From Myxococcus hansupus (GTDB taxonomy: Bacteria; Myxococcota; Myxococcia; Myxococcales; Myxococcaceae): DNA of 64,000 bases. Shown here piece after piece: positions 29,270-64,000 of this stretch (positions within the stretch are counted from its first letter, which is position 1; each line of letters opens with the position of its first letter). Where the stretch lies: NCBI RefSeq assembly GCF_000280925.3, contig NZ_CP012109.1, positions 3,120,501-3,184,500 on the forward strand. Reading direction: 5' to 3'. Under the pieces are notes generated by a model. It had not been told where the DNA came from, ran no database searches, and worked only from the letters and a program-made list of their open reading frames with translations. The translations under genes were made by a program, and so were the position numbers.

Positions 29270-30793
29270 TCAGCGCGACACGGGCTGCTGCGCCAGGGTG
29301 CGCAGCGCTCGCCGGTCGAGCTTGCCATTCGGCGTCCGTGGCAGCTCCGCCATGGCGCGGACCTCGTCGACAATCATGTAGCGCGGCAGCCGCTCCGCGC
29401 AGTGCTTCTTCACGTTGAGCAGGGAAGGCGGCCGTGCGGCGTTGCTGACCACGAAGGCCACCAGCCGCGTCGCCAGTCCCTCACCCGAGGTGACCACGCC
29501 CACCTCGCGGATGTCGGGGTGGGTGAGCAGCACCGCTTCGAGCTCGCCGGCCTCGATGCGGCGGCCCCGCACCTTCAGCATGTTGTCGCGGCGCCCCAGG
29601 TACTCGAAGGTACCGTCAGGCAGCTCGCGGCAGCGGTCGCCGGTGGCATATGGCTTTGCCCCGTGGAGCGGCTGGCCCCAGTAGCCCAGCATCACCGTGG
29701 GGCCTTCGACCATCAGCTCGCCCACGCCGTCGCCTTCCTCGCGCGCCTCATCGGAGTCCGGCGGGGGCCGGGCCAGCCACACCCGGTTGCCGCAGCTCGC
29801 GCGGCCAATGGGGACCGGCTCGGTGCGGTGGGCCGAGATGTCCGTCACCTCGTGGAACGTGCAGACGTTCGTCTCCGTGGGCCCGTAGAGGTTGAACAGG
29901 CGCGCATCCCGCAGGTGCTCGCGGAGCGGACGCAGGTGGCGGATGGGGAAGGGCTCGCCCGCGAAGAGCACGGCGCGGAAGGGCAGGTCCGCGTGGCTCA
30001 GCAGGCCGCCCTCCTGCATCATCTGCATCAACACCGACGGCACCGAGTACCACACGGTGAACCGCTCCCGGAGGACCTGCTCCACCAGCTTCTCGGGGGA
30101 GAACGCGAGCGCCTCCGGGATGAGCGTGACGGAGGCGCCGCCCATGAAGGCCGCGTAGAGGTCCAGCACCGACAGGTCGAAGAAGAACGGCGCGTGGTTG
30201 CTGAAGCGGTCCTCGGGCGTGGTCTCCAGCAACTCGTGGCACCACTCGATGAAGGCCAGCGCGTTCCGCTGACTGATGCACACGCCCTTGGGTGTGCCCG
30301 TGGAGCCGGAGGTGTAGAGGATGTACGCGAGGTCGTCGTCGCCCGCGCCGTGGGGGGGCAGGGGCTCCGACGAGAAGCTGGAGAGACGGTTCCACGACAG
30401 CGCGGGGCCCTTGTCGTCCACCAGCAGGAAGCGCAGCCGGCCCATGCCCGCGTTGTGGAGCTCCGCGGCCCGGGTGGTGGTGGTCACCAGCACGTCGATG
30501 CCGCAGTCGTCCAGGATGAGTCGCGTCCGGGTCGCGGGATTCAACGGGTCCATGGGGACGTAGGCCGCGCCCAGCCGCGCGATGCCTTGCATCGCCGCCA
30601 CGGCGCGCACGGACTTCTCCGCCCACAGGCCCACGCGGTCGCCGCGCCGGATGCCCAGCTCCTGGAGTGCGCGGGCGATGCGATTGGCGAGCGCATCCAA
30701 CTGGCCGTAGGTGAGCGTCCCGTCGGGACCCTTGATGGCGACGGCTTCGGGAGCCTTCGCCGCTGCACGGATGACGATTTGGTCGAGTGTCAT
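29270..30793 (-). CDS. Stand-alone amino-acid adenylation enzyme, predicted L-proline-specific
   Basis: A 507-residue free-standing A domain. Core motifs: YTSGSTGTPKG (A3), YGPTET (A5), YATGD (A7), RRIEAGELE and a C-terminal PNGKLDRRAL. Reading specificity positions against GrsA gives D-L-L-Y-L-A-L-V (Asp206, Leu207, Leu210, Tyr from VWYSVPS, Leu and Ala in AVLFAGE, Leu in FNLYGP, Val in NVCT). That is the signature I recall for L-proline-AMP ligases of pyrrole pathways (PltF, PigI, RedM). It would load proline onto a carrier protein for oxidation to pyrrole-2-carboxyl. Its ATG overlaps the stop of the dehydrogenase by 4 bases, so translation is coupled. A longer frame to 31576 is spurious. 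No thiolation domain is attached. Confidence 0.93.
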   Translation of the reverse strand: MTLDQIVIRAAAKAPEAVAIKGPDGTLTYGQLDALANRIARALQELGIRRGDRVGLWAEKSVRAVAAMQGIARLGAAYVPMDPLNPATRTRLILDDCGIDVLVTTTTRAAELHNAGMGRLRFLLVDDKGPALSWNRLSSFSSEPLPPHGAGDDDLAYILYTSGSTGTPKGVCISQRNALAFIEWCHELLETTPEDRFSNHAPFFFDLSVLDLYAAFMGGASVTLIPEALAFSPEKLVEQVLRERFTVWYSVPSVLMQMMQEGGLLSHADLPFRAVLFAGEPFPIRHLRPLREHLRDARLFNLYGPTETNVCTFHEVTDISAHRTEPVPIGRASCGNRVWLARPPPDSDEAREEGDGVGELMVEGPTVMLGYWGQPLHGAKPYATGDRCRELPDGTFEYLGRRDNMLKVRGRRIEAGELEAVLLTHPDIREVGVVTSGEGLATRLVAFVVSNAARPPSLLNVKKHCAERLPRYMIVDEVRAMAELPRTPNGKLDRRALRTLAQQPVSR

Positions 30794-31929
30794 AGGCCGA
30801 GCTGGTTGGCGATGATGTCGCGCTGGATTTCGGAGGTGCCGGAGAAGATGGCGCTGGGTATGGCGTCGCGGAGCACGCGCTCGATGCCCGTCTCCGTCAC
30901 GTAGCCCATGCCGCCGTGAATCTGGATGGCGTCCAGTCCGCTCTGGATGGCGGCCTCGCTGATGGCCAGCTTGGCCAGGGACACCTCCATCGCCGCTTCC
31001 TGGCCGCGGTCCATCTTCCAGCAGGCCTGGTACAGCAGCAGCCGCGAGGCCTCGAGCCGCTGCTTCATGTCCGCGAGCCGGTGGGAAATGGCCTGGTTCT
31101 TCGACAGCGGCTTCTTGAACTGCTTGCGCGTCCGGGCGAAGTCCACCGTCTGTTCGAGCACGCGCTCCATGACGCCCACGTACGCGGCGAAGAGGCACGC
31201 GCGCTCCCATTGCATGGAGCGCTTGAAGATGGCCGCGCCCTGGCCCTCGGCTCCCACGCGCGCGGACTCCGGAACGCGGCAGCCTTCCAAGTAGATGGGC
31301 GCGATGGGCGACGTGGACAGGCCCATCTTCTCGAAGGGCCGGCCCACCGACAGTCCGGGCGTGTCCTTCTCGATGAGGAACGCGCTGATGCCCATGTAGC
31401 CGTGAGACGGCTGCGTGGCGGCGTAGACGAGGAACACGTCGGCGGACGGTCCGTTGGTGACGTAGCTCTTGCCGCCGTCGAGCACGTAGCCGTCCCCGTC
31501 GCGCACCGCGCGCGTCTTGAGGGCGAAGACATCCGAGCCCGCCTCCGGTTCGGAGATGGCGTTGGCGCCAATCCACTCGCCCGAACTCAGCCGGGGCAGG
31601 TACCGGGCCTTCTGGGCGTCGTCGCCGCTCTCCAGGAGGGGCATCACGCAGGCGAAGAGATGCGCGCCCACGGAGAAGACCAGCCCGGTGTCCACGCAGC
31701 CTCGGCCCAGCGCTTCCATCACCCGGGCTGTCGTCAGCGTGTCCAGCCCCAAGCCCCCCAGGGTCGTGGGGACGGGCAGGCCCAGGAAACCAAACTCACC
31801 ACATCGCTGCCAGAGATTGCGTGGCAGGACTTCCTTGGTAGGCTTTGCCGTCTCCGGCAGGTGGTCGCGCGCGAACGCGAGGGCGCGGTCGTAGAGCTCC
31901 GCTTGCTCGTGTGTCCAACTGAAGTCCAT
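30790..31929 (-). CDS. Acyl-CoA-dehydrogenase-like flavoprotein, predicted prolyl-carrier dehydrogenase
   Basis: A 379-residue acyl-CoA dehydrogenase fold enzyme, the same length class as PltE and PigA. Features: a flavin/substrate-binding AISEPEAGSD, YVTNGPSADVF, the RKQFKKPL segment, IHGGMGY and the C-terminal FSGTSEIQRDIIA. The Glu of GYVTETGIERVLRD is the likely catalytic base region. Paired with a proline A domain it should desaturate the prolyl thioester twice to pyrrole-2-carboxyl, the starter unit of prodigiosin-, pyoluteorin- and DKxanthene-type compounds. ATG 31929 (MDFSWTHEQ) fits family length; frames to 32217 are non-coding extension. First gene of the divergent two-gene operon. 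Confidence 0.92.
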   Translation of the reverse strand: MDFSWTHEQAELYDRALAFARDHLPETAKPTKEVLPRNLWQRCGEFGFLGLPVPTTLGGLGLDTLTTARVMEALGRGCVDTGLVFSVGAHLFACVMPLLESGDDAQKARYLPRLSSGEWIGANAISEPEAGSDVFALKTRAVRDGDGYVLDGGKSYVTNGPSADVFLVYAATQPSHGYMGISAFLIEKDTPGLSVGRPFEKMGLSTSPIAPIYLEGCRVPESARVGAEGQGAAIFKRSMQWERACLFAAYVGVMERVLEQTVDFARTRKQFKKPLSKNQAISHRLADMKQRLEASRLLLYQACWKMDRGQEAAMEVSLAKLAISEAAIQSGLDAIQIHGGMGYVTETGIERVLRDAIPSAIFSGTSEIQRDIIANQLGL

Positions 31930-33811: not shown

Positions 33812-36415
33812 ATGAACAAACTTCCGGGAAGCGCCATCGTCATTGGCGCGAGCATTGGCGGTCTCAGCGCCGCGCGCGTGCTGGCGGACCACTTCGAGCG
33901 GGTCACCGTCATCGAGCGTGACGTGCTCGACGACGGCCCCCGTTCGGGCGCCCCGCAGGCCAATCACATCCATGTGTTGTTGCGGCGTGGCGTGGACCTC
34001 CTGGATCAGTACTTCCCGGGGCTCCTGGAGGAGATGAAGGCGGAGGGCGTCGAGCCCTTCGACTTCACCCGAGATCTGCGCTGGCTCCAGTTCGGTGACT
34101 GGATGCCGCGTGATCCCAGCGGCATCGTGTTGTACCCGCAGACGCGCTTCTCCCTGGAGCGCCACCTCCGCCGGCGCCTGCGCGCCTACGCCAACGTGGA
34201 GATCCTGGAGTCGACCGCCGTGCGCGCCTTGCTGGCCACGCCCGATGGCCGGCGCATCCTGGGCGTCCAGACGCATTCACGGCAGGAGGCGAACGGCGCG
34301 GTGACGAACCGGCTCGCGAACGTCGTCGTCGACGCGAGCGGGCGTGGGACGCAACTGGGCAAGTGGCTGGCGGACCTGGGGTATGGCCCGCTGGAGGAGA
34401 GCCGGCTCCCCATCAACCTCTGCTACGTCTCGCGGCTCTTCGAGCGGCCCTCGACGCCCAGGGACTGGCGCGGCCTGTGGGTGACGCCGTTGCCTCCGGA
34501 GGCGCCTCGGGGCGGGGCGATGCAGGAGGTGGAGGACCACCGCTGGATTGTGTCCCTGTTCGGCTACGAGGGACACCACCCGCCGCGCGACGAGAGCGGC
34601 TTCGTGGAGTTCGCGAAGAGCCTTCGCGAGCCCGACATCTACGAGGCCATCAAGGATGCTCGGCCCGTGTCGGACGTGCAGGTGTACCGGGTCCCCGACG
34701 TGCGGTGGCGCCACTTCGAGCGGCTGTCGGACTTCCCCGCGGGGCTGCTCGTCCTGGGGGATGCCTGGTGCTACTTCGATCCCGTCTTCGGCCAGGGCAT
34801 GTCCGTGGCGATGCTGGAAGCCAACCTCCTGAATGAGTCGCTGCACCAGCTCGACAGTCTGGATGCGGTGACCCAGGCGTGGACCGCGACGTACCTGCGC
34901 ACGGGCGCCCAGTGGCTGCGCGGACTCTGGTTCTTCGTGACGGCGGAGGCGATGCGGCACCCGCACGTGCCCGGCGAGCGCACCCGTCTGGTCAAGTTGG
35001 CGCAGTGGTACGTGGAAGAGCTCTACGCCCTCAATCACGAGCACCCCGAGGTCTACCGGGAGTTCCTCAAGCTGATGCACGTCCAGGCGGGGCCGGAGTT
35101 CCTCCTCCGTCCGGACATCGCGCTGCGGCTGGCGAAGCGCGCGTGGCGGAAGAAGCAGGTCATGGGGTTCGGCGCCCAGGCGCTTCAGCCGGAGGGCGCC
35201 ACCGCTGAGCCGGCCAGCGACCTGCCCTTGTGGCCCGCGAGCCGGGTGGCCCTGGGCATGCGCTACGTGGGCAGGGTGCTGGCCAACATCGTAGCGCCCG
35301 GGCAGGTGGGGCCGCGGGATCGCATCTGCCACTTCGACACCGAAATGATGTGGACCCCGGACCCATCGCTCGGCTGGTTCGTGCGCGACGCGCTCCGCTC
35401 CCAGAACCTGCTGGGCGAGGCCCAGGAGGTCCGTCGGTTCCTCGAGTACTGGCTCCCGGTGCAAGGGCTGAGCGTGTCGAAGAAGGCGTTGATTGAGTTC
35501 TCCTTCAACGTGGACGAGCCCGGCCTGGGCTTCATGCTCTACAGCGACACCGAGACGGTGACGCGGTCCTTCCGGGAGTACACGCGCCAGATGGGTCTCT
35601 CCAACGAGGGCGTGGAGCGCTCGGTGGCCATCTGCGAGACGTTCCGTCCCTCGGACCTGGGCCTGGTGCGGGCCGAGTTCAAGCCGGGGAGTCCGACGCG
35701 ATACTCGATCGCCGCGAGCTGGCACTTCGATCCGATGCGGGGGCACTCGGGGTTCGAGGATGCGATGCGCCGGCTCCCGGAGCGCTTCCGGGCCGGCCCC
35801 TTCGCGGAGCGGGTGAAGTCCCATGCCCAGGCGCTGGGGACCGAGTACTTCCCGCTGTTCCTGGGGCTGAGCTTCCAGGAGGACGGGACGCTCGAATCGA
35901 AGATGTATCTGGTTCGCTTCGACGACAAGCAGCCGCCATTCCAGCCCGGCTCGGCGCTGTGGCGCTTCCTCGAAGGGATGGGCGTGCCCGCACCGGAGCT
36001 GGAGCGCATCCGCCAGTTGAACGAGCTGCTGTGGGAGCGGTCCGCGGACAAGATGACCCAGATCGCCATCGAGGCCTCGGAATCCCAGCCCCAGGCCAGA
36101 CGGGTCAACCTCATCTACTGTGGGACCCAGACCTCTGCGGTTCTGGAGGCGATTCCCCGATTCGGGTATCCCTCTTCCGCGACTCAAGCTGTTCGGGAGT
36201 TCGAGCAGCGGATGCAAACCGATCGCGCGAAGTTCGTCGCGGTGCGTGTCGGCCCCGAGGGACTGAGTCCACGCCTCAAGTTGTACAAGCATGCGTTGTT
36301 CGACTTCGCGGATCTGTCCGTGGTGGAGGATGGGGGCCTCAAACCACGGGTTTCTCAGACAGTGGGAGACAGCCCGGCGGCCGCGAGTGACGCCCCTGAT
36401 GTGTGTCTTTATTGA
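33812..36415 (+). CDS. FAD-dependent oxidoreductase fused to an unknown C-terminal domain
   Basis: An 867-residue protein of two halves. The N-terminal half (about 1-430) is a flavin monooxygenase-like fold: FAD-binding GASIGGLSAA, the HIHVLLRRG segment near the substrate loop, VVVDASGRG, and the GD motif VLGDAWCYFDPVFGQGMSVA. The C-terminal half (about 500-867) has no family I recognise. It has several K-x-Y or R-x-Y stretches (SPTRYSI, ESKMYLV, RLKLYKH), which loosely recall aromatic prenyltransferase barrels, and it ends in a disordered tail. A candidate for oxidising the oxazoline formed by the Cy domain, or for tailoring the pyrrole. ATG 33812 fits the glycine-rich start. Confidence 0.8.
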   Translation: MNKLPGSAIVIGASIGGLSAARVLADHFERVTVIERDVLDDGPRSGAPQANHIHVLLRRGVDLLDQYFPGLLEEMKAEGVEPFDFTRDLRWLQFGDWMPRDPSGIVLYPQTRFSLERHLRRRLRAYANVEILESTAVRALLATPDGRRILGVQTHSRQEANGAVTNRLANVVVDASGRGTQLGKWLADLGYGPLEESRLPINLCYVSRLFERPSTPRDWRGLWVTPLPPEAPRGGAMQEVEDHRWIVSLFGYEGHHPPRDESGFVEFAKSLREPDIYEAIKDARPVSDVQVYRVPDVRWRHFERLSDFPAGLLVLGDAWCYFDPVFGQGMSVAMLEANLLNESLHQLDSLDAVTQAWTATYLRTGAQWLRGLWFFVTAEAMRHPHVPGERTRLVKLAQWYVEELYALNHEHPEVYREFLKLMHVQAGPEFLLRPDIALRLAKRAWRKKQVMGFGAQALQPEGATAEPASDLPLWPASRVALGMRYVGRVLANIVAPGQVGPRDRICHFDTEMMWTPDPSLGWFVRDALRSQNLLGEAQEVRRFLEYWLPVQGLSVSKKALIEFSFNVDEPGLGFMLYSDTETVTRSFREYTRQMGLSNEGVERSVAICETFRPSDLGLVRAEFKPGSPTRYSIAASWHFDPMRGHSGFEDAMRRLPERFRAGPFAERVKSHAQALGTEYFPLFLGLSFQEDGTLESKMYLVRFDDKQPPFQPGSALWRFLEGMGVPAPELERIRQLNELLWERSADKMTQIAIEASESQPQARRVNLIYCGTQTSAVLEAIPRFGYPSSATQAVREFEQRMQTDRAKFVAVRVGPEGLSPRLKLYKHALFDFADLSVVEDGGLKPRVSQTVGDSPAAASDAPDVCLY

Positions 36416-36493
36416 TTTCTGTTGGTCGTGATTGAAGTTCAAACAAGCAATGAGTCTGAGCGGCTTTCCTGCCGTCAGCGGAGCCGTGTCCCG

Positions 36494-38692
36494 ATGTGGT
36501 GTGAGCCGATTGCTGTCGTGGGTCTGGGGTTGCGCTTCCCCAAGTCAGACAGCCCCAGTGCGCTTTGGAAACTGCTGTGCGAGGGGGCCGACGCGACGGG
36601 GGACATTCCACCCGGACGCTGGCCCATGGAGTCTCTCTTTGACTCCAGCCCAGACCAGCCCGGGAAGATTCGGAATCGCCGTGCGGGCTTGATTGACGGC
36701 GTGGACCAGGCGGACCCCACGGCCTTCCGGCTGTCGAAGCGCGAGCTGCGGCAGATGGACCCACAGCATCGGCTGTTGTTCGAGTGCGCGTGGCACGCCT
36801 TGGAGGACGCGGGCATTCCCTTCGATGCCGTGCGGGGGAGCCGCACGGGTGTCTTCATGGGGGTCAACTTCAGCGACTTCCAGCGGATGCTGACCAAGGA
36901 CTGGTCGGCGCTGGATGGCTATGCCGTCCTCGGGACGACGGCGTCCTTCGCCGCCAACCGGCTCTCCTATGCGTTCGACCTGCGCGGGCCCAGCACCGTG
37001 TCCAGCGTGGGCTGCGCGTCGTCGACGGTGGCCCTTCACGAGGCCTGCCGCGCCTTGATGCTGGGCGAGGTGGAGCTGGCGCTGGCGGGCGGCGTGGAGC
37101 TGATGTTGTCCCCGGACAGCAGCATCATGCTGTCTCAGGCCGGGGTGTTCTCCGAGCAGGGCCAGTGCCGGACCTTGGATGCCAAGGCCGACGGGTACGT
37201 GCGCGGCGAGGGCGCGGGCGTGGTGGTGCTCAAGCGCCTGTCGAAGGTCGACGCCAGCGACCGCGTGTACGCCGTGATTCGCGGCAGCGCCGTCAATCAC
37301 AACGGCCGCAACGAGTGGATCATGGCGCCCAGCGCCGGGGCCCAGGCGGAGGTCATCCGCTCGGCCTGCGAGCACGGCGGCGTGGACCCCGCGAGCCTCG
37401 ACTACATCGAGCTGCACGGCTCGTCCTTCCTGAAGGGGGACGCCGCCGAGGCGGACGCGATTGGCGAGGCGCTCGGGACGCAGCGGCCGTTCCCGTGCCG
37501 GCTGGGCGCCATCAGCAACAACCTGGGCTATCAGGGCGCGGCGGCGGGCATCGCCCAGTTCATCAAGGTGTGCCTGTCCCTGCACCACCGCGTCTTGCCG
37601 CCCACGATTCACGTGGACGCGCCGAACCCGCTCATCGACTTCGATGCGCTGGGGCTGCGCATCCAATCGGAGCGGGAGCCCTGGCCCTCGCGTGCGGCGG
37701 GTGTTCCTCCCCGGGCGGGCATCGTGTCGACCTCGCTGGGGGGCGCCAACGGCTTCGTGGTGCTCGAGGCAGCGCCGCAAGCCGTGGACGCCGGGAGGGC
37801 GGAGGCCTCTGGGCATCTGCTGGTGCTTTCGGCGCTCACGCCGGAGGGGCTTCGCCAACGCGCGCTCCAACTGCGGGACTTCCTTGCCGCGACCCCCGAG
37901 TCCTCGCTGGAGGACATCTGCTTCACCGCTGCGTTCAAGCGCCAGCATCACCGGCACCGGGCCGCGGTGGTCGCGGAGGACCTCGCGGGGCTCGTGGAGC
38001 GGCTCGGCTTGTTGGCACGGCCCGGGGAATCCTCGGTGCTGGCACAGGCCGGGCAGCCGGAGCAGCGGGTGGAGGCCGCGCGGGCTTTCGTGGCGGGTGG
38101 GGCTTTCGACCACGACGCCATGGGGGCGCGTGGCGGCCGTTGCGTGAGCCTTCCGGTCCATCCCTTCCAGCGGCAGCGCCTGTGGCCTGAGTGGCTCTCG
38201 CCGGAGGAGGTCTGCCGGTCGCCCACGGAGGCCCGGGCGGACGCCTCCACGGTGCTTCAGGCGGCGGCGCGGGTCGCTGGAGATGCGCGCGAGGTCCCGG
38301 CGATTCAGGGGGAGTTTCAGATGCGGGCGTTCCTGCGGGGACAGCTCGCGCAGGTGCTGGAGGTCGAACCCACGACGCTCGACGCGGAGGGGCGGACCTT
38401 CTTCGAGCTGGGGTTGAACTCGATTGGCGCCACCCAGTTGAAGGAGCGGCTGGCCCGCGCGCTGGAGCTGACGCTGTCGACGACGCTCCTCTTCGAACTC
38501 CCCCGGCTGGAGCCGCTCGCGAAGCGGCTGGTGGCCCTTCAAGAGGCGAAAGGTGCGCGGAAACGCGAGGCCGTGAGCGTGTCCGAGCAGGAGGACACGG
38601 GGCTGGTCGAGCGCATTGCCGGGCTGTCCGAGGACGAGGCGCGCGAGCAGATCGCCCGGACGTTGGCCCAACTCAATCTCGAGGTGGCGTGA
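36494..38692 (+). CDS. PKS loading-type protein: degenerate KS, no AT, ACP
   Basis: About 732 residues. The KS (about 3-430) keeps the nucleophile in an unusual SVGCASST and one His in ELHGSSFLKG, but the second His motif (normally NIGHTEAAAG) reads NNLGYQGAAAG, so His is Tyr and the preceding Lys is Asn. That pattern suits a transfer (non-decarboxylating) KS. The KS-AT linker then jumps straight to the post-AT linker HPFQRQRLW: no AT is present. A typical ACP follows (about 620-690, phosphopantetheine Ser in LGLNSIG). It probably receives the pyrrolyl starter. Start uncertain: ATG 36494 with GGAG upstream; TTG 36422 and GTG 36428 give a longer N-terminus. Overlaps the next gene by one base (TGATG). 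Confidence 0.88.
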   Translation: MWCEPIAVVGLGLRFPKSDSPSALWKLLCEGADATGDIPPGRWPMESLFDSSPDQPGKIRNRRAGLIDGVDQADPTAFRLSKRELRQMDPQHRLLFECAWHALEDAGIPFDAVRGSRTGVFMGVNFSDFQRMLTKDWSALDGYAVLGTTASFAANRLSYAFDLRGPSTVSSVGCASSTVALHEACRALMLGEVELALAGGVELMLSPDSSIMLSQAGVFSEQGQCRTLDAKADGYVRGEGAGVVVLKRLSKVDASDRVYAVIRGSAVNHNGRNEWIMAPSAGAQAEVIRSACEHGGVDPASLDYIELHGSSFLKGDAAEADAIGEALGTQRPFPCRLGAISNNLGYQGAAAGIAQFIKVCLSLHHRVLPPTIHVDAPNPLIDFDALGLRIQSEREPWPSRAAGVPPRAGIVSTSLGGANGFVVLEAAPQAVDAGRAEASGHLLVLSALTPEGLRQRALQLRDFLAATPESSLEDICFTAAFKRQHHRHRAAVVAEDLAGLVERLGLLARPGESSVLAQAGQPEQRVEAARAFVAGGAFDHDAMGARGGRCVSLPVHPFQRQRLWPEWLSPEEVCRSPTEARADASTVLQAAARVAGDAREVPAIQGEFQMRAFLRGQLAQVLEVEPTTLDAEGRTFFELGLNSIGATQLKERLARALELTLSTTLLFELPRLEPLAKRLVALQEAKGARKREAVSVSEQEDTGLVERIAGLSEDEAREQIARTLAQLNLEVA

Positions 38693-42983: not shown

Positions 42984-42987
<4 letters not shown>
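38692..42987 (+). CDS. PKS module KS-AT(degenerate)-KR-ACP
   Basis: About 1431 residues. A coiled-coil docking helix precedes an intact KS (about 37-460; DTACSSS, EAHGTGT, NIGHTEAAAG). The next region (about 500-800) aligns with an AT but lacks every key motif: GQGSQ is replaced by FGDTEPG and GHSxG by GAGIG; the catalytic Ser and His are absent. The KR is complete with structural subdomain, TGGLGGIG and Tyr in QASYAAAN. The LAD in VLADS is close to the B-type (LDD) pattern. The ACP is present (LGFDSIMA). There is no DH or ER, so this module should leave a beta-hydroxy. An acyltransferase from another module or protein must supply the extender. Overlaps the next gene by 4 bases (ATGA). Confidence 0.92.
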
Positions 42988-51881
<8,894 letters not shown>

Positions 51882-54800: not shown

Positions 54801-57440
54801 GAGATGCTGGCCTCCGCCGCGTCCCAGGTGCTGGGGACGGAGTCGCTGCGGCTGGAGGACCTCTCGCTGCTCCAGCCGCTGCTGTTGCCGGAGCAGCAGA
54901 CGCGCACCGTCCAGACGTTGGTGGAGCGGGTGGGCGAGGACGGCCTGTCGTGCACGGTGATGAGCCGTGGCGACGAGCGTCCGGAGGAGGGCCGCGGCGC
55001 GCGCGCGCCATGGGTCACCCATGTGACGTGCCGTGCCTCCGTCCTGAGCGAGTCACCGCCTGTCGTCAGCCGTGAGGCGTGGAGTCAGCACTGTGCCACG
55101 GCGGTCTCCATCGAGGACCTCTCCGCCGTCTTCACCCAGCACGGGCTCGACTATGGGCCCTCGCTGCGCGTGTTGAGCTCACTCCACCGGGGCACCGGTG
55201 CCGCGCTGTCCTTCAGCCAGGTCGAGGACCGGAGTGGGCAGTACCGCGTCCATCCGGCCCTCTTCGACGGCTGCCTGCGCACCGCCGCCGCGGTGACGCG
55301 GCTCACCGGAGAGGACGCGCTGCACCTGCCGGTGGCGATGCGACGGCTCGACCTGTACCGGGCACTGCCGGAGCGCGTCTGGACCCATGCGACGCAGCCG
55401 CCACATGAAGGGCAGGCGGGCTTCCCGGCCTCGGACCTCACCGTGTGCTCCGAGGATGGCGGCGTGGTGGCCGTCCTGTCGGGCTTCTCGGTGCGGAGGG
55501 CCGAACGGGACGCGCTGCTTCGTGGGCTCGACGGAGACTTCCAGGACTGGCTCTACCGTGTCGCCTGGGCGCCGCGTGCCGTTCCGGAGGAGACGCAGGG
55601 CGCGGGCCAGCACTGGGCCGTCTTCGTCAACGCGGAGGGGTTTGGCTCGGAGCTCGTGCAGGTGCTCACGCAGCGCGGTGAGCGGTGCACCGTGATTCGC
55701 AGGGGAGAGACCTACAGCCAGGGGGCGGAGGGCTACCGCGTCAATCCTTCCTCCACGGACCACTTCGAACGGCTCGTTCAGGACTGGGCGCACGCACCGC
55801 CCACGGGCGTGCTGTACCTCTGGGGCCTCGACGAGGGGCCTGTGAGCCCGGGGACGCTGGCCCACTTGGAGGCGGCACACGTCTCCGGGCTCACGGGCGC
55901 ATTGCACCTGACGCAGGCCCTGGCGCGGAGCGCGGCGGCTGCGCCCCGGCTGGTCCTGGTGACGCGAGGAACCCAGAGCCTCGCCTCGGATGCGCAGGGC
56001 GCGCGGGTGGCGCAGGCTCCGCTGTGGGGCTTCGGTCAGGCCGTGGCGACGGAGCTGCCCGAGCTGCGGTGCCTGCGCATCGACCTGTCGGCGGAGCCCC
56101 GTGCCGAGGACCTGGGCGCGTTCGTCCGGGCGTTGTCGCTACCCGGCGAGGAGTCCAGCGCGGCCATTCGCGACGGCGGTCTGTATACCGCCCGGCTCGA
56201 GCGGGCCCGGCTGCGCGCCTCGTCCGCGAAGAAGCCGGCGATCGTGGCGGACGCGGCGTATGTCGTCGCGGGCGGCCTGGGCGGCCTGGGGCTCCGCGTC
56301 GCGCTCTGGCTGGCGGAGAAGGGTGCGCGGCACCTCGTGTTGATGGGCCGCAACGCGCCTTCCGCTGAATCACGAGCACAGCTCGACGCACTGGCCGCGA
56401 AGGGCGTCCAGGTCCAGGTCGCGCTCGTGGATGTCACCTCGCGCGACGCCGTGGCGGAGCTCTTCGAGCGTCTGCGGAGCGGGCCTCCCGTGCGCGGCAT
56501 CTTCCACTCCGCGGGTGTCCTGCGCGATGGCACGCTCGCGAACCAGACGTCCGAGCAGTTCCGCGCGGTGTTGGCACCGAAGGTCCAAGGCGCGTGGAAC
56601 CTGCACGAACTCAGCGCGCGCATGGCGCTGGACTTCTTCGTCTGCTTCTCGTCTGCGGCCTCGCTCATCGGCTCACCGGGTCAGGCGAACTACGTCGCGG
56701 CGAATGCCTTCCTCGACGCGTTGGCCCACCTGCGTCAGGCGGAGGGCAAGCCCGCGCTGACGCTCAACTGGGGCTCCTGGGCGGAGACGGGCATGGCCGC
56801 GAGGCTGGAGCGCGCCGCCTCGGTGCGCCCGGGGGCGCAGGGCTTCGGCTCCATCCCGGTGGAGCAGGGCCTGAGCGTGCTCGAGCGGCTCCTGGGCAGC
56901 GGTCAGGTCCAGTGGGGCGTCTTCCCCGTGGACTGGGCGCGGCTCGCGGAGCAGCTCCCGGGGCTCGCGCGCCAGTCGCTGGTGCAGGGCTTCATCAGCG
57001 CCGTCCCTCAGCGGGCGCCAGCACCCGTCTTCCAGGTGGAGTTGGACGCGGCGCCAGCGAACCGGCGGCTGGAGTTGTTGCGGCGGCACGTGTCGGCGCA
57101 GGTCGCCACGACGCTGGGAATGCCAGAGACAGAGAAGCTCGCGGGGAACGAGCGCCTGTTCGAGGTCGGCGTGGATTCGCTGCTGGCCATCGAAATCCGG
57201 AACCGGCTCGCCAGCAGCCTGGGGCGGAGCCTCCGCTCGACGCTGATTTTCGATTTCCCCACCGTGAATGCCCTCGTCGCGCACCTGGCCGAGCAGTTGG
57301 GTGTGGAGGCCGAGGTCCCCAAGCAACAGGAAGCATCGCGGGAGGCGCAGGGCGCGCTCACCGCGGAGATCCAAGGGCTGTCAGAGCAGGAGCTGACGTC
57401 CCTCATCGACCAGGAGCTGGAGAGCGCGCTCACCAGATGA
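51891..57440 (+). CDS. PKS module KS-AT-DH-KR-ACP
   Basis: A 1849-residue module. An N-terminal helical docking segment precedes KS (DTACSSS, EAHGTGT, NMGHLEG). AT has GQGSQ, GHSVGEYAAA and HAFH, the malonyl-CoA pattern. DH has HRVYGKAVVP and the Asp in ALFDGCL. KR has GGLGGLG and Tyr in QANYVAAN (B-type Asp in VLRDG). ACP Ser lies in VGVDSLLA, followed by a C-terminal helical docking tail. No ER or thioesterase. It should install one trans double bond per cycle. Nine bases separate it from the previous gene and seven from the next. This is the only module here whose AT motif is canonical malonyl. Confidence 0.93.
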   Translation: MSAQGSDTSYGELMKRALLKLQEAQSKLDAQELERHGAIAIVGMGCRFPGGVTDPEGYWRLLAEGTDTVTEVPGDRWNADSFFHPDPDHPGGIYTRHGSFLRGMDQFEPRFFGISPREAARMDPQHRLLLEVAWESVERAGRSPASLHGTRTGVFVGLMGQDYTQIATQSPELIDAHTGAGNGASVAAGRLSYTFGLQGPSLTVDTACSSSLVAVHLAIRSLRQRESDFAFAGGVNLVLSPVATLIESRTHMLSPDGRCKTFDASANGIGRGEGCGLVFLRRLEDALADGDPIVAVLRGSAVNQDGRTSGLTVPNGLAQQRVIRDALNDAKVEPAKVGYVEAHGTGTALGDPIELEALSAVYCARTGRQQPLMAGSVKTNMGHLEGASGIAGLIKSALCLAKAEVPPHLHLRTPTSHVDWRQLSIEVPTALRPWTAEASRFAAVSSFGFSGTNAHVVLESAPAPKLSERAVARPSHVLALSARSAGSLRRLAGSLADALSNGHGDALADVCHTMNTGRAAMEERAAFVAPTSEALAQSLRAFSQGEGGAAAEGRKEEHAPKVAFLFTGQGSQYVGMGRELFDTEPAFRRELLRFEEILKPHLERPLTEVLFKDTSGALDETRYTQPALVALELALASLLRAWGLRADAVLGHSVGEYAAAMFAGVMTPEAGLPLVAERARLMQALQAPGAMLAVFAEPSRVAPFLAPHPRVSVAALNGPRNTVISGDAASIDAIVQRLVSEGIESRRLNVSHAFHSPLMQPMLAEFERAVARVALQPPQVALISNLDGREVGEAITQSGYWSRHVLQPVCFAEGVQTLVQRGVRVFLELGPKPSLSGFARDVVASEAAVWLETLHPRRSDWAGLLRALAELHVRGVSVDWAGFDVGQGLRRTVLPTYPFERQRYWLDVPAPWTRQVRRASTHPLLGARLESPALKDGTTVFSSELSADTASFVTDHRVYGKAVVPASAFVEMLASAASQVLGTESLRLEDLSLLQPLLLPEQQTRTVQTLVERVGEDGLSCTVMSRGDERPEEGRGARAPWVTHVTCRASVLSESPPVVSREAWSQHCATAVSIEDLSAVFTQHGLDYGPSLRVLSSLHRGTGAALSFSQVEDRSGQYRVHPALFDGCLRTAAAVTRLTGEDALHLPVAMRRLDLYRALPERVWTHATQPPHEGQAGFPASDLTVCSEDGGVVAVLSGFSVRRAERDALLRGLDGDFQDWLYRVAWAPRAVPEETQGAGQHWAVFVNAEGFGSELVQVLTQRGERCTVIRRGETYSQGAEGYRVNPSSTDHFERLVQDWAHAPPTGVLYLWGLDEGPVSPGTLAHLEAAHVSGLTGALHLTQALARSAAAAPRLVLVTRGTQSLASDAQGARVAQAPLWGFGQAVATELPELRCLRIDLSAEPRAEDLGAFVRALSLPGEESSAAIRDGGLYTARLERARLRASSAKKPAIVADAAYVVAGGLGGLGLRVALWLAEKGARHLVLMGRNAPSAESRAQLDALAAKGVQVQVALVDVTSRDAVAELFERLRSGPPVRGIFHSAGVLRDGTLANQTSEQFRAVLAPKVQGAWNLHELSARMALDFFVCFSSAASLIGSPGQANYVAANAFLDALAHLRQAEGKPALTLNWGSWAETGMAARLERAASVRPGAQGFGSIPVEQGLSVLERLLGSGQVQWGVFPVDWARLAEQLPGLARQSLVQGFISAVPQRAPAPVFQVELDAAPANRRLELLRRHVSAQVATTLGMPETEKLAGNERLFEVGVDSLLAIEIRNRLASSLGRSLRSTLIFDFPTVNALVAHLAEQLGVEAEVPKQQEASREAQGALTAEIQGLSEQELTSLIDQELESALTR

Positions 57441-57447
57441 GACCCTG

Positions 57448-60400
57448 ATGGCGAAACTATCCTCACGAATTTCGGAGTTGCCTGTCGTCAAGCTCGCGTA
57501 CCTCGCGAGTCAACTGCGCTCGAAGAAGGAGCTGCTGGCGGCGGAGCCCATCGCGGTGGTGGGCATGTCGTGCCGTTTTCCCGGTGGCGGTGAGCTGCCC
57601 GAGACGTTCTGGGAGCTGCTGGCGGCCGGGCGCGACGCGTCGCGGGAAGTCCCGGCCTCGCGCTGGGACGTCAATGACTTCTACGACCCGACGCCCGGTG
57701 TCCCGGGGAAGATGTACACGCGCCGGGGTTCCTTCATCGACAACGTGGACCTGTTCGACCCGGGCTTCTTCGGCATCACGCCGCGAGACGCCAAGGGGAT
57801 GGACCCGCAGCAACGGCTGTTGCTCGAGGAGTGCTGGCGGGCCCTGGAGCGCGCGGGCATTCCTCCCAGCAGCCTGACGGGGAGCCGCACCGGCATCTTC
57901 CTGGGGTTGATGCACAACGACTACAACCTGCTCGGCATCAGCGAGGAGATGGAGATGCACTCCGCATCTCTCAACTATCCCTCCGTTGCCGCGGGTCGCA
58001 TCTCCCACACGTTGGGCCTTCAGGGGCCCGCTGTCTCCGTGGACACGGCCTGCTCGTCGTCGGCCGTGGCCATCCACCTGGCGTGTCAGAGCCTGCGCAA
58101 CGACGAGAGCGACATCGCGCTCGCCGCGGGCGCGAACCTGAACCTCTCGCCCGTCACGGTGATGGTCGAGTGCCAGAACCGGATGCTCGCCGCCGACGGG
58201 CGCTGCAAGACGTTCGACGCCTCCGCCGATGGTTTCGGGCGAGGTGAGGGATGCGCGGTCGTCGTGCTCAAGCGGCTGTCGGACGCGCTGGCCCAGGGTG
58301 ACGCCATCATCGGTGTCATCCGCGGCTCGGCGGTGACGCATGACGGCCGCAGCAGCGGGTTGATGGTCCCCAACGGTCGCTCCCAGGAGCGCGTCATCCG
58401 CGCGGCGCTCGACAGTTGTGGGGTGGAGCCGGAGCAGGTCGGCTACATCGAAGCCCACGGCACGGGGACGTTGCTCGGTGACCCCATCGAGATGGAGGCG
58501 TTGCGCTCCGTCTTTGGCCGGAAGGGCACCCGGAGCGATCCGCTGTTCGTCGGTTCCGTGAAGACGAACATCGGGCACCTGGAGGCCGCCGCGGGCATCG
58601 CGGGGCTCATCAAGGTGCTCCTCTCGCTGCAGAACGAGGCCATCCCCGCCCACCTGAACTTCGAGCGGCCCAACCCCAACATCCGCTGGGAGGACCTGCC
58701 CGTCACGGTGCCCACCACCACGCGGCCCTGGCCGCGGGGCGAGAAGCGCCGCATCGCGGGGGTCAGCAGCTTCGGCTTCAGCGGCACCAACGTCCACATG
58801 GTGGTGGAGGAGGCCCCCGTGCTGGCGCGGCCGCGCGTGGAGCGTGAGCGCCCGGCGCACGTGCTGTCCCTGTCCGCCAAGAGCGAGGCCTCGTTGGAGG
58901 CCCTGATGGAGGCGCAGGAGCACGCGTTGCCCGAGGCGGCGTCCGCCCTGGGCGACTGGTGCTACACGGCGAACACGGGCCGCTCCCAGTTCGAGCACCG
59001 CGCGGCCGTGACGGGGACGACCGCGGCCGAGCTGCGCGCGAACCTGAAGCGCCTGCGCGAGGAGAAGCTTCGCCCGGCACGGGAGCCCCTGCGCGGCACG
59101 GAGAGCCCCAAGCCCGTCTTCCTGTTCACGGGACAAGGCGCGCTTCGCCCTGGCGTGGGAAGGGAACTCTACGAGACGCAGCCCGCGTTTCGGACCGCGC
59201 TGGAGCGCTGCTCCCAGGCCCTGGCAGGGCTGCTGGATTGCAAGCTGGAGGACCTGCTCTTTGGCGAAAGCTCCGCCGCGCTCATGGAGGATACGCGGCA
59301 CGCACAGCCCGCGTTGGTGGCGCTGGAGTACGCCCTCGCGGAGCTGTGGAGTGCCTGGGGCGTCACGCCCGGGGCGGTCATCGGGCACAGCCTGGGCGAG
59401 TACGCGGCGGCCGCGGTCGCGGGTGTGTTCAGCATCGAGGAGGCCTTGCGCCTGGTGGTGACGCGCGCCCGGCTCATCAGCGAGCACCTGTCGGCCGGGG
59501 CGATGTCATCCATCTCCGCCCGACTCGAAACCGTGGAGCGCGTCATCGCGACGCACGCCGGGGCGGTCTGCCTGGCCGCCGTCAACGGCCCCGAGGACCT
59601 GGTCGTCTCGGGACAGCCGGATGCCATCACCGCTGTGGAGGCGGAGCTGGCGCGCGAAGGCATCCCCTTCAAGCGGCTGCGAATGGCCTACGCGTTCCAC
59701 TCGAACATGATGGAGCCGGTGCTCGCGCCGTTCGCGGCGTCGTTCCGCGGGCTGTCCCTGTCCGCGCCCCGGATTCCGCTCGTCTCCGCGCTGCACGGTC
59801 GGCACATCGACGCCGAAATCACCCAGCCGGAGTACTGGTGCCGGCAGCTCTGTGAGCCTGTCGCCTTCGCGAGCGGCTTGGAGGCCCTGCGCGCGGAAGG
59901 GCACCGGACCTATCTGGAGATTGGACCGGCGCCCATCCTCGCGGGAATCGGCCGCCGGAACTTCCAGAGCGCGGACGAGCTGTCGTGGCTCCCGAGCTTG
60001 CGCCCCTCGTCGGGAGAGACGGCGCAGCTCGTCGCCAGCCTGGCGGAGCTGTACATGCGGGGCTTCGAGGTCGACTGGGCCGCGTTCGATGCGCCCTTCG
60101 AACGGCGTCCGCTGTGCCTGCCGACCCATCCGTTCCTCCGGGAACGCTACTGGATGGAGAAGCGGCAGGTGGAGAAGCCCGGCTATGCGTCGAAGGAGGG
60201 CTCGGCGCGGAGCGGTGGCCCCCCCATGCCGGGGGCTCGGCTGTCATTGCCCGGCTCACAGGAGGCGCGCTTCTCCGCGCGGTTGAGCACGCGCTCGCCC
60301 GCCTTCATCGAAGAGCATCGCGTGCTCGGCAATCCCGTGCTGCCGGCCGCTTGCTACGTCGAGATGGCGATCGGCGCGGCGCACCAGGTGGCCTCGGGTG

Positions 60401-62946
60401 AGCGCCCGTTGGAACTCACGGCCATCGAGTTGGAGCGAGCCCTGGTCCTCACGGAGGGGCAGGCCCAGGACGTCCAGACGGTGCTGACGCCCGATGAGGG
60501 CGGCTCCCGGTTCGAGATTCACGGGCAGGGCACGGGCGCGGACCGGAACTGGCACCGCCTGGCCCAGGGCCGCATCGTCGAGGGCCGCACGCGTCCGGAG
60601 TCCGTCGACGTCGAGGGCAGCCTGTTCAAGGCCTTCCCGCGCGAAGGCTCGGTGAGCGCCTTCTACGAGATGATGGCGAGCGGAGGGCTCGAGTACGGCC
60701 CGTCCTTCCAGGGCATCGATGCGCTGAGGTTCGGTGACGGCGGTTGCCTGGCGCACGTGCGGCTGCCGGATGCACTCGTCATCGGCGTGGGCGACTACTG
60801 GCTCCACCCGCTGCTCCTGGACGCGTGTTTCCAGACGGCCGCGGCGGCGTTCACGGGCGGCGAGGCCCCGCGCGAAGGTGGCGGACAGGGCCGCATCCCC
60901 GTCGCCATCGAACGGCTGCGGTGGTTCAAGCGCCCCGGAAGCCGCGTCTGGGTTCAGGCGCGGGGCGGCACGGGGGCCGCGCTCTCCGAGGGACTGGTGA
61001 GCACCGACCTGCGCATCCTCGATGAAGAGGGCGCGGTCATCGCCGAGGTGGAGGGCCTGCTGCTGAAGCAGCTCGACCGCCGCGCGTTCAAGGCGTCCTT
61101 CTCGGGCGCCATGCAAGAGCTCCTCTTCGAGCTGGCGTGGCGTGAACACGCCGCGCCCGCGGGCCGGGACCAGGTCGCGAACCATCCCGGCGCGTGCCTG
61201 TTGTGGGTGGACGCGGGCCACGACGCGGAAGCCGTCCGCGCCCTGGCGCGAGAGCGTGCCTGGAGCTGCGTGGTGGTGACGCCGGGCCCGGCGTATGAGC
61301 ACGTCGAGCCGGGCCTCTACCGCGTGGACCCCATGGACCCCGCGGGCTTCGAGCGTCTGCTCCAGGACGTGGTGGCCGCGGGCACGGTGCCCGCGACGGT
61401 CGCGTACCTGTGGGGACGGAGTGAGCGCGCTCCCGAGTCGCCGTCAGGTGAGGTGCCTTGGAACACGGTGGGAGCGCTCCACCTGGTCAAGGCCCTGGCG
61501 CGGGCGAACTGGGCCCAGCGCCCCGCGTTGTGGATGGTGACGGAAGGGGCCGTCGCCGTGGCGGCGACGGACACCGTGGACCGCTTCACCCAGGCGTCGC
61601 TCTGGGGCTTCGGCCGGGCCGCCGCCATCGAGCATACGGAGCTGCGCTGCCGCATGGTCGACCTGGAGCCCGGCGACGACGCGCTGGCGCGGCTGTTCCA
61701 CCTCATGGCGGAGCCGCTCGAGGAGAACGTCATGGCCCTGCGTGACGGCCGGCTCCTCGGCGCGCGTCTGGTGCGTCCGACCCAGGCGCCGGAGCAGGCA
61801 GCCCCCGTGCGCATCCAGCCCGAGGGGGTGTACCTCGTCACCGGAGGTCTGGGCGCGCTCGGGCTCGCGACCGCGGAGTGGTTGGCCGGAGCGGGCGCGA
61901 AGCACCTGCTGCTGGTCGGCCGAAGCGCTCCGGGCGACGAGGCGAAGGCCCGGCTCCAGTCGCTGAGTTCGCGAGGCGTCGACGTCACCGTCGCGCGCGC
62001 GGACGTCTCCCGGTGGGACGACGTGCAGCGGCTCGTGGACGGGGTGGCGGAGCGGGGCTCACGCCTGCGCGGCGTCATCCACACGGCGGGCGTGCTGGAG
62101 GACGGCGTCATCCTTCACCAGGACCGGACGCGTTTCTCCCGTGTCTTCGCGCCCAAGGTGCAAGGCGCGTTGAACCTCCACCGCGCCACGGCGGGCCTGT
62201 CGCTGGACCTCTTCGTGACGTACTCGTCCGCGGCCTCGTTGGTGGGCGTGGCGGGGCAGTCCAATTACGTCGCGGCCAACAGCGTCCTCGACGCCCTGGC
62301 GCATCACCGGCGCCGGATGGGACTTCCCGCGCTCAGCATCAACTGGGGGCGCTGGGCCGGCGCGGGCATGGCCGCCAAGAGCGCGGACCGGGGCGAGGTC
62401 TCCGACGGCTCCAGCCTCGCTCCAGAACTGGCCCTCCAGGTCTTCGAGCAGCTCCTGGAGCAGGGGGCCGTGCAGATGGGCGTGGTGCCGTTCAGCGTGG
62501 CCTCGCTGGAGTCGGGCCCGTCGCCCGGCCACGGGCTTCTGTTCTCCGAACTCATGCTTCGCGAGCAGGCGCGCTCCGCGGGGGCCTCGCGCATGCACGA
62601 GTTGATGGAGGAGCTGAAGCGCGCGGACAGCGAGCGACGGCGCGCGCTGCTGACGCGGTACGTGCAGAGCCGCCTGGGTCCGTTGCTGGGCTTCGCCCCG
62701 GACCACGAAGTCCTTCAGAAGAAAATCTCCCTGAACGAGATGGGGCTCGATTCGCTGCGCGCGGTCGAGCTGAAGAACCGCATTGGCCGTGAGCTGGGCG
62801 TGGAGCTCCTCATGGCGCGGTTCATCGACGGAACGACGCTCGATGGGCTCGTGGACGCGCTCCACACCCAGCTCGGGCTGAAGGAACTGCTCGCGCGCGC
62901 GCCCGCTGCCACGGCCGCCGCCGAAATCGAGGAGTTGACGGTATGA
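57448..62946 (+). CDS. PKS module KS-AT-DH-KR-ACP
   Basis: An 1832-residue module. A short N-terminal docking helix precedes KS (DTACSSS, EAHGTGT, NIGHLEAAAG). AT has GQGA (in place of GQGS), GHSLGEYAAA and the hybrid selectivity motif YAFH, between malonyl HAFH and methylmalonyl YASH. DH has HRVLGNPVLP and the Asp in LLLDACF. KR has GGLGALG and Tyr in QSNYVAAN (Asp in VLEDG). ACP Ser lies in MGLDSLRA. No ER. A polyene-extending module; the mixed AT motif fits variable methyl branching. Its stop overlaps the next start by 4 bases (ATGA). Confidence 0.92.
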   Translation: MAKLSSRISELPVVKLAYLASQLRSKKELLAAEPIAVVGMSCRFPGGGELPETFWELLAAGRDASREVPASRWDVNDFYDPTPGVPGKMYTRRGSFIDNVDLFDPGFFGITPRDAKGMDPQQRLLLEECWRALERAGIPPSSLTGSRTGIFLGLMHNDYNLLGISEEMEMHSASLNYPSVAAGRISHTLGLQGPAVSVDTACSSSAVAIHLACQSLRNDESDIALAAGANLNLSPVTVMVECQNRMLAADGRCKTFDASADGFGRGEGCAVVVLKRLSDALAQGDAIIGVIRGSAVTHDGRSSGLMVPNGRSQERVIRAALDSCGVEPEQVGYIEAHGTGTLLGDPIEMEALRSVFGRKGTRSDPLFVGSVKTNIGHLEAAAGIAGLIKVLLSLQNEAIPAHLNFERPNPNIRWEDLPVTVPTTTRPWPRGEKRRIAGVSSFGFSGTNVHMVVEEAPVLARPRVERERPAHVLSLSAKSEASLEALMEAQEHALPEAASALGDWCYTANTGRSQFEHRAAVTGTTAAELRANLKRLREEKLRPAREPLRGTESPKPVFLFTGQGALRPGVGRELYETQPAFRTALERCSQALAGLLDCKLEDLLFGESSAALMEDTRHAQPALVALEYALAELWSAWGVTPGAVIGHSLGEYAAAAVAGVFSIEEALRLVVTRARLISEHLSAGAMSSISARLETVERVIATHAGAVCLAAVNGPEDLVVSGQPDAITAVEAELAREGIPFKRLRMAYAFHSNMMEPVLAPFAASFRGLSLSAPRIPLVSALHGRHIDAEITQPEYWCRQLCEPVAFASGLEALRAEGHRTYLEIGPAPILAGIGRRNFQSADELSWLPSLRPSSGETAQLVASLAELYMRGFEVDWAAFDAPFERRPLCLPTHPFLRERYWMEKRQVEKPGYASKEGSARSGGPPMPGARLSLPGSQEARFSARLSTRSPAFIEEHRVLGNPVLPAACYVEMAIGAAHQVASGERPLELTAIELERALVLTEGQAQDVQTVLTPDEGGSRFEIHGQGTGADRNWHRLAQGRIVEGRTRPESVDVEGSLFKAFPREGSVSAFYEMMASGGLEYGPSFQGIDALRFGDGGCLAHVRLPDALVIGVGDYWLHPLLLDACFQTAAAAFTGGEAPREGGGQGRIPVAIERLRWFKRPGSRVWVQARGGTGAALSEGLVSTDLRILDEEGAVIAEVEGLLLKQLDRRAFKASFSGAMQELLFELAWREHAAPAGRDQVANHPGACLLWVDAGHDAEAVRALARERAWSCVVVTPGPAYEHVEPGLYRVDPMDPAGFERLLQDVVAAGTVPATVAYLWGRSERAPESPSGEVPWNTVGALHLVKALARANWAQRPALWMVTEGAVAVAATDTVDRFTQASLWGFGRAAAIEHTELRCRMVDLEPGDDALARLFHLMAEPLEENVMALRDGRLLGARLVRPTQAPEQAAPVRIQPEGVYLVTGGLGALGLATAEWLAGAGAKHLLLVGRSAPGDEAKARLQSLSSRGVDVTVARADVSRWDDVQRLVDGVAERGSRLRGVIHTAGVLEDGVILHQDRTRFSRVFAPKVQGALNLHRATAGLSLDLFVTYSSAASLVGVAGQSNYVAANSVLDALAHHRRRMGLPALSINWGRWAGAGMAAKSADRGEVSDGSSLAPELALQVFEQLLEQGAVQMGVVPFSVASLESGPSPGHGLLFSELMLREQARSAGASRMHELMEELKRADSERRRALLTRYVQSRLGPLLGFAPDHEVLQKKISLNEMGLDSLRAVELKNRIGRELGVELLMARFIDGTTLDGLVDALHTQLGLKELLARAPAATAAAEIEELTV

Positions 62947-64000
62947 ACCTGGGGGAACTGGTCGCCGAGATGAACCGGCGGGGACTGGAAGTCCGCGTGG
63001 AAGGCGATGCGCTGCGGCTTCGCGGCCCGAAGGGCGCCGCCGACCCGGAGCTGCGCCATGCGCTGGCGGAGCACAAGCAGGCCCTGCTGAAGCTGCTGCG
63101 GGACCATGACGAGGTCCGGGAGGAGGCCCCCATCGTCCCGGTCCGCCGGGATGGGTACGCGCCCCTGTCGTATGGGCAGACGCGGCTGTGGTTCCTGGAC
63201 CGGCTCGAGCCTGGCAGCACCGCCTACAACCTGGTGCTGGCCCTCCAGGTCGAAGGGCGGCTCGACCCGTCCATCCTGCACCGCTGCTTCGTGGAGATTG
63301 TCCGCCGCCACGAGATTCTCCGCACCCGCTACGCCGAACACGAAGGCGCGGCCGTGCAGTGGGTGGACCCGGAGCCCCGCTTCGGCTTCCAGGTGCTGAA
63401 GGAAGCCGAGGTGCTCGCCACCGCGCCCGCGGGCGTGGAGGCGTTCCTCCGGCGCGAGGGAGATCGCCCCTTCGACCTCGCCACGGGGCCGGTGGTCCGC
63501 GTGCTCGTCATCGAAGGCGGGGAGGGGGGGCAGTTCATCCAGCTCTGCCTGCATCACATCGCGGCGGACGTGTGGGCGCAGGCGGTGCTCGTCCGCGAAG
63601 TCGTGACGCTGTACGGCGCCTTCGCGTCCGGGCAACCCTCGCCGTTGCCTCCGCTCACGCTCCAGTACGGCGACTTCGCCGTCTGGCAGCGGGACTATCT
63701 CCAGGGGGAGGTCCGTCAGCGCCTGGTGGACTTCTGGCGGAAGAAGCTGGAGGGCGCGCCGCCTCTGCTGGAGCTGCCCACGGACCATGTTCGGCCCAAG
63801 GTGCAGACGAACCGGGGCGGCGAGGTCCGCTTCGAGGTCGGCCCTCGCGTCACCTCGGCCCTCAAGGCCCTGAGCCACTCGGCTAAGACGACGCCCTTCG
63901 TGGGCATGTTGAGCGCGTTCTTCGTGCTGCTGCACCGCCTCACGGGGCGGGATGACCTGGTGCTGGGGGCCAACTCCATCAACCGGACCCGCACGGAGCT
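62943..64000 (+). CDS. NRPS start: TubC docking and condensation domain (truncated by window)
   Basis: ATG 62943, overlapping the PKS stop; open to the window end, 352 codons visible. The N-terminus is a TubC-like docking domain (MNLGELVAEMNRRGLEV, then a basic helix). From about residue 70 comes a condensation domain: the C1 motif SYGQTRLWF, HHxxxD as HHIAADVW, and YGDFAVWQR. The HHIAADVW site is intact, so it should form a normal amide bond. In a DKxanthene-type pathway this would add asparagine to the polyene acid and be followed by an Asn A domain and release domain, not seen here. The visible part matches an LCL-type C domain fed by a PKS. Confidence 0.9.
   Translation, partial: MNLGELVAEMNRRGLEVRVEGDALRLRGPKGAADPELRHALAEHKQALLKLLRDHDEVREEAPIVPVRRDGYAPLSYGQTRLWFLDRLEPGSTAYNLVLALQVEGRLDPSILHRCFVEIVRRHEILRTRYAEHEGAAVQWVDPEPRFGFQVLKEAEVLATAPAGVEAFLRREGDRPFDLATGPVVRVLVIEGGEGGQFIQLCLHHIAADVWAQAVLVREVVTLYGAFASGQPSPLPPLTLQYGDFAVWQRDYLQGEVRQRLVDFWRKKLEGAPPLLELPTDHVRPKVQTNRGGEVRFEVGPRVTSALKALSHSAKTTPFVGMLSAFFVLLHRLTGRDDLVLGANSINRTRTE

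Follow-up and report, generated by a model that had tools for sequence, protein, structure and literature searches.

A dkx-type locus of the Myxococcus xanthus lineage with an adjoining predicted epoxidase-ABBA fusion protein

The window analysed here is a 64,000-nucleotide stretch of Myxococcus hansupus DNA (assembly GCF_000280925.3, contig NZ_CP012109.1, positions 3,120,501 to 3,184,500 of the forward strand) in a single-contig genome of 9.49 Mb. From position 29,270 onwards it carries a mixed assembly line of nonribosomal peptide synthetase (NRPS) and polyketide synthase (PKS) modules, which most probably represents the dkx cluster for DKxanthene pigments, and an adjoining gene for a fusion protein whose two halves point to epoxidation and prenylation. 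Two starter genes lie on the minus strand, opposite to the assembly line. One (29270..30793) encodes a stand-alone prolyl adenylation (A) domain, matched by Pfam AMP-binding, whose nearest solved relative by sequence is the L-proline:prolyl-carrier-protein ligase 6o6e (E 6e-148). The other (30790..31929) encodes a dehydrogenase of the acyl-CoA-dehydrogenase type, predicted to act on prolyl peptidyl carrier protein (PCP) and matched by Pfam Acyl-CoA_dh and by the NCBIfam model PigA (515 bits, cut-off 500); the RedW model also matches strongly, under its own cut-off. Between these genes and the first assembly-line protein lie two plus-strand genes, for an EboF-like member of the phosphohydrolase family PF01663 (32372..33796) and for the 867-residue fusion protein (33812..36415).

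The assembly line proper, with domains assigned by Pfam, begins on the plus strand with a loading protein of ketosynthase (KS) and acyl carrier protein (ACP) domains (36422..38692). It is followed by a module of KS, dead acyltransferase (AT), ketoreductase (KR) and ACP (38689..42987), in which Pfam finds a mere fragment of the AT, and by a large protein (42984..51881) that joins TubC_N, heterocyclisation (Cy), A and PCP domains to KS, AT, dehydratase (DH), KR and ACP. Two further KS-AT-DH-KR-ACP proteins come next: one (51891..57440) has the AT motif HAFH, which we take to be of malonyl type, while the AT specificity motif of the other (57448..62946) varies between species (YAFH, FAFH, HAFH and others). 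The last protein to start in the window, at 62943, continues beyond it to window-equivalent position 67247 (L009:44-4348) and has TubC_N, condensation (C), A, PCP and thioesterase (TE) domains. From the EboF-like gene to this C-A-PCP-TE protein the plus-strand genes are tightly packed, never more than 15 bp apart and in places slightly overlapping, and they may be co-transcribed. A fourth KS-AT-DH-KR-ACP protein is encoded downstream (window-equivalent 70,123-75,654), with an ArsA-type ATPase and a patatin located in between. Pfam scans reported no enoylreductase (ER) domain in any assembly-line protein. An earlier note on this DNA had listed a proline-type A domain with a dehydrogenase, a degenerate KS-ACP loading protein, one KR module, three KR/DH modules without ER and the start of an NRPS; all are present, and the Asn-type A domain and release domain that it proposed to look for beyond position 64,000 are found in the C-A-PCP-TE protein.

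Substrate codes and catalytic motifs were compared across species in a multi-locus alignment. Rows shorter than 80% of the reference were dropped, which left 22 sequences for the KS-ACP protein and the A domain, 21 for the KR module (without the truncated G023) and 20 for the remaining proteins (without the truncated G016 and G023); for PKS4 the G011 and G116 rows are not true orthologues (42% identity) and no count was made. The proline code D-L-L-Y-L-A-L-V-C is unchanged in all 22 sequences. The terminal A domain reads D-G-T-K-V-G-E-V-A in 20/20, six of nine positions matching the canonical Asn code DLTKLGEVG, and the Cy-linked A domain D-F-Y-S-M-G-V-L-W, likewise in 20/20. The last place of these two codes is uncertain by one residue because of an aligner gap: the ungapped count gives the final A of the first where the aligner gives C, and for the final W of the second the aligner gives N. 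The Cy motif DGTF[IV]DGYS, of the form DxxxxDxxS, is present in all 20 sequences.

Several domains are altered. The KS of the KS-ACP protein keeps its Cys and has G-Y-x-G in place of G-H-x-E (22/22). None of the 21 KR-module sequences has GHSxG in its AT; many different forms stand there instead. In the KR of the Cy protein N-H-C-A stands where the KRs of the other polyene modules have Tyr (20/20), and the KR of the KR module reads N-D-A-A in one genome, G017. The altered AT, KS and KR are common to every locus that could be compared; hence, the assembly line must work differently from what its list of domains suggests.

A plausible route can be drawn from these proteins. The A domain would activate L-proline and load it on a carrier. 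The simplest candidate is the ACP in the KS-ACP protein, since no other carrier was found ahead of the first extension module. The dehydrogenase would then convert the prolyl to a pyrrolyl group. The KS of the KS-ACP protein would not extend the chain because its second catalytic His is missing. The KR module would add one malonate and reduce it to the hydroxyl and, its own AT being dead, the malonate would have to come from an AT acting in trans; Pfam scans of the cluster genes revealed no discrete trans-AT gene. The Cy-A-PCP part would add a β-hydroxy amino acid and cyclise it to an oxazoline. The polyene would be built by the three KS-AT-DH-KR-ACP modules in the window together with the fourth encoded downstream, and as the KR of the first polyene module has His for Tyr, another KR would have to serve it. 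The C-A-PCP-TE protein would add Asn and release the product. The earlier note had expected an oxazole, which would call for an oxidase. This was dropped: the DKxanthene description in the accessible part of PMC4902038 has an oxazoline and, in keeping with this, Pfam reported no oxidase domain in the Cy-A-PCP protein.

The dkx locus of M. xanthus spans MXAN_4289-4305, with dkxG as MXAN_4299 (PMC3986340, consulted in part; BGC0000986), and dkx is reported to be conserved across Myxococcus and Stigmatella (PMC12766979, in part). According to the available text of PMC4902038, a DKxanthene consists of Asn, a polyene, an oxazoline and a pyrrole, with variants in chain length and methyl branching. 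The compounds are described, in the accessible parts of that paper and of PMC13218925, as yellow Myxococcus pigments with an important part in spore maturation and with activity against nematodes. Of 195 Myxococcota genomes, 23 have an orthologue of the KS-ACP protein (E <= 1e-150). The locus was read in 22 of these (the region of G015, which has A and KS-ACP matches, was not fetched), and the gene order is common to all 22 as far as each stretch extends; the whole cluster is syntenic within the genus. In a record of M. xanthus AM003 (L023) the first five genes stand in the same order, with identities of 93% for the dehydrogenase, 89% for the A domain, 87% for the phosphohydrolase-family protein, 83% for the FAD (flavin adenine dinucleotide) protein and 78% for the KS-ACP protein; its contig ends soon after. 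Among named records the A domain is 88-89% identical to those of M. xanthus AM003, Myxococcus sp. CA023 and M. vastator AM301, and 96% identical to one in a record titled Comamonas sp. KCTC 72670. This last record (L022, BNCN01000004.1) holds a dkx cluster with its first five genes 88-97% identical to those of the window, and its title is probably that of a mislabelled Myxococcus.

Taken together, the gene order shared by the loci, the order in M. xanthus AM003 and the published descriptions of dkx lead us to put at roughly 0.85 the probability that the window holds the dkx cluster of the M. xanthus lineage, with a pigment likely to be further oxidised and/or prenylated by the adjoining fusion protein. 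The suggestion of the earlier note that this is a dkx-type locus thus agrees with both the downstream module and the conserved order of genes. The cluster itself is of a known kind, and its real interest lies in the fusion protein, whose gene precedes the dkx assembly line in the most thoroughly studied lineage of myxobacteria; epoxidation and prenylation go unmentioned for DKxanthenes in the literature covered.

The N-terminal 340 residues of the fusion protein align over the FAD domain of the epoxidases MonCI and Lsd18 (E 2e-46 to 6e-50), the FAD epoxidase domain occupying residues 5-345 (33824..34846). Unlike the solved chains of MonCI (monensin) and Lsd18/LasC (lasalocid), which are 488-512 residues long, the window protein continues into a further domain. 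AlphaFold2, applied to the C-terminal 391 residues with a 20-sequence alignment, predicts a ten-strand barrel of five repeats, the architecture of the ABBA (PT-barrel) prenyltransferases, with five β-β-α-α units at residues 518-831 (35363..36304); the whole fusion, modelled with eight close sequences, reaches a mean predicted local distance difference test score (pLDDT) of 45.1. The ABBA part has no match in Pfam even at E 10. The Glu of the first strand (L-I-E-x-S) and several strand Arg, Lys and Tyr residues are invariant in all 13 aligned sequences, with no reliable residue map to a solved enzyme. Stand-alone matches to this domain were found in 15 proteins of 214-455 residues that lack any Pfam domain, in a search that excluded proteins of fusion length; some lie on short contigs, and one, P0010, starts with the end of a FAD part. 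The Pendulispora protein among them (398 residues) is not a contig-end fragment, for it lies on a contig of 12.2 Mb. The canonical ABBA families PF11468 and PF11991 occur in five and nine of the 195 genomes, respectively, and none of these is the window's own.

NphB-type (PF11468) prenyltransferase genes are present in four genomes of the genus, G008, G009, G014 and G015 (L135-L138), three of which are dkx carriers without the fusion, and one more is found in G141. A second MonCI-like FAD protein, at G000:C1:1773982-1775283, matches the FAD part only (41%), and similar matches occur in many genomes of the genus.

The EboF-like protein is 49% identical to a homologue in G042 that adjoins xylose-isomerase-like and dehydroquinate (DHQ)-synthase-like genes, of the EboE and EboD types; the gene in the window is without eboA-eboE company and sits among dkx genes. 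In 9/9 sequences the dkx-associated protein has Asn where the G042 and G029 homologues have Thr. Because this Asn replaces what we take to be the nucleophile, the protein may not hydrolyse. EboF is described, in the accessible part of PMC5133447, as a distinct PF01663 lineage whose operon includes a putative prenyltransferase, EboC, and the ebo cluster has been linked to the transport of a pigment precursor (PMC6282210, in part).

A profile of the C-terminal domain matches 9 of the 195 Myxococcota genomes, at one site each and all within this genus. All nine fusion loci are dkx loci with the EboF-like gene adjacent, the fusion gene occupying the same place in each without internal stops. The Stigmatella-type loci (G137, G139) and the other Myxococcus dkx loci (M. 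eversor L044/G013, among others) have the same core, including the dead AT, the GYxG-type KS and the KR with His for Tyr; unlike the window, they are without the EboF-like and fusion genes. A midpoint-rooted tree was built from 7,206 columns of five dkx proteins, concatenated for each of the 20 complete loci; in it, all seven complete loci that carry the fusion fall into a single group (support 1.0). Under that rooting, on which the placement depends, its sister comprises the Stigmatella-type and G134/G135 loci rather than the other Myxococcus loci, and a single gain of the fusion on that branch would be the simplest reading of the tree.

Ratios of nonsynonymous to synonymous substitution (dN/dS) were estimated by NG86 between the window and G024, G021 and G006, in that order; the fusion tail, at 17-22 residues, is too short for a usable estimate. 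The ABBA domain gives 0.17, 0.18 and 0.18, the FAD domain 0.06, 0.14 and 0.12, the EboF-like protein 0.09, 0.13 and 0.11, and the linker of the fusion 0.46, 0.43 and 0.31. The AT remnant evolves fast, at 0.37, 0.40 and 0.35, whereas the KS within that protein gives 0.06-0.11, and the other listed domains fall between 0.04 and 0.28. The ABBA domain is evolving like the intact domains and unlike the dead AT.

Several observations weigh against the reading as a dkx cluster with a decorated pigment. The Cy-A-PCP part (42984-51881) is present as listed in the earlier note, although its Thr-like code is weaker than the note had it: just three of nine positions agree with the canonical Thr code DFWNIGMVH, so that Thr is unsupported by the code and is presumed to be the amino acid of this module from the published DKxanthene pathway. 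The fusion protein is absent from 13/22 loci read, as is the EboF-like gene, and is therefore not needed for the core. Searched against the Protein Data Bank (PDB) by sequence, the ABBA part yields no match as a single sequence and chance-level matches as a profile. Alignment with hhalign to myxobacterial relatives of DMATS reaches a probability of only 73%, its register being displaced along the barrel, and the second-strand Arg of those relatives is seemingly not conserved in the fusion when compared by eye. Finally, no prenyl group or epoxide appears among the DKxanthene variants described in the accessible part of PMC4902038, the primary biosynthesis papers lying outside this coverage.

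It is quite possible, if not our preference, that the cluster is dkx and that the fusion and EboF-like proteins share its place only, making or exporting something else. The 13 loci without them, which include that of the Stigmatella-type G139, would fit such an arrangement, as would the silence on modified DKxanthenes in the part of PMC4902038 available and the tie between the ebo cluster and pigment-precursor transport (PMC6282210, in part). However, both genes share the orientation of the assembly line, and in the window 15 bp separate the two from each other and 6 bp separate the end of the fusion gene from the KS-ACP reading frame; their order is the same in 9/9 carriers, and both are under purifying selection. 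We consider it rather unlikely that the ABBA domain no longer transfers prenyl groups and is now an appendage of the epoxidase with a structural or substrate-binding role. Some positions conserved in DMATS relatives but not in the fusion, when compared by eye, and the very weak sequence similarity to known prenyltransferases (8-15% identity to CymD, MpnD, PriB, IptA and NphB-type enzymes) favour such a loss, yet it sits poorly with the invariant first-strand Glu and its accompanying Arg, Lys and Tyr residues, with the occurrence of the domain on its own, as in Pendulispora, and with dN/dS values like those of intact domains. A different pyrrole-oxazole polyketide, for instance of the pyrronazol type, is very improbable. 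Nannocystis loci (L026-L029) do share the dehydrogenase, prolyl A and KS-ACP starter genes at 42-62% identity, and pyrronazol is reported to be conserved in that genus (PMC12766979, in part); nevertheless, identity is 56-57% for the A domain and 42-46% for the KS-ACP protein, against 78-96% in four named fusion-carrying records, and the polyene modules and the Asn-type C-A-PCP-TE protein fit DKxanthene. L026 and L027 differ from the window in having all genes on one strand and a next module with KS, AT, DH and KR.

We thus favour a dkx cluster whose pigment is predicted to be decorated in part, likely by epoxidation and/or prenylation; no report of such decoration was found. It is tempting to speculate further that a whole class of DKxanthenes from the M. 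xanthus lineage has been overlooked, in which a single bifunctional enzyme, a MonCI-type epoxidase joined to an ABBA prenyltransferase, would both oxidise the polyene and attach a prenyl group to the electron-rich pyrrole, while an EboF-like partner would handle either the prenyl donor or the export of the product; in this full form the proposal is speculative and, on balance, unlikely. If true, this would be the first enzyme to join an epoxidase and an ABBA domain in this way, and would amount to an upgrade, specific to this lineage, of a textbook pigment of the myxobacteria. Narrow literature searches found no flavin/ABBA fusion and nothing on MXAN_4302 and MXAN_4303, and for MXAN_4301 they found expression only.

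Beyond the core, the loci differ in their additional genes. A split extra module (DH-KR-ACP and KS-AT, 933-955 residues) flanks the fourth module in G003, G008, G013, G017, G115, G137 and G139. These seven loci with the whole split module are all without the fusion, and G116 shows part of it. The split module is found neither in G134/G135 nor in the three fusion loci printed (window, G024 and G006); the G011 stretch is truncated, and the survey extended neither to G005 and G014 nor to the other fusion loci. In G139 a radical S-adenosylmethionine (SAM) protein lies between the two parts (L163:18006-20000, minus strand), with a B12-binding match below the cut-off, and is possibly a C-methyltransferase. 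The patatin-like protein behind the thioesterase module (L009:4369-5469, window-equivalent 67,268-68,368) is present in the 20 loci read far enough, and matches the NCBIfam CBASS phospholipase model at 73 bits, far under the cut-off of 200. On the other side, a Rieske oxygenase gene with a KshA_C domain (28214-29263, plus strand) adjoins the A-domain gene and, among 16 loci compared, is present in the window and G024 only. A cytochrome P450 gene after the fourth PKS module (L009:13828-15120, window-equivalent about 76,727-78,019) is likewise confined to the window and G024 in the stretches compared, a comparison in which M. xanthus DK1622 was not included.

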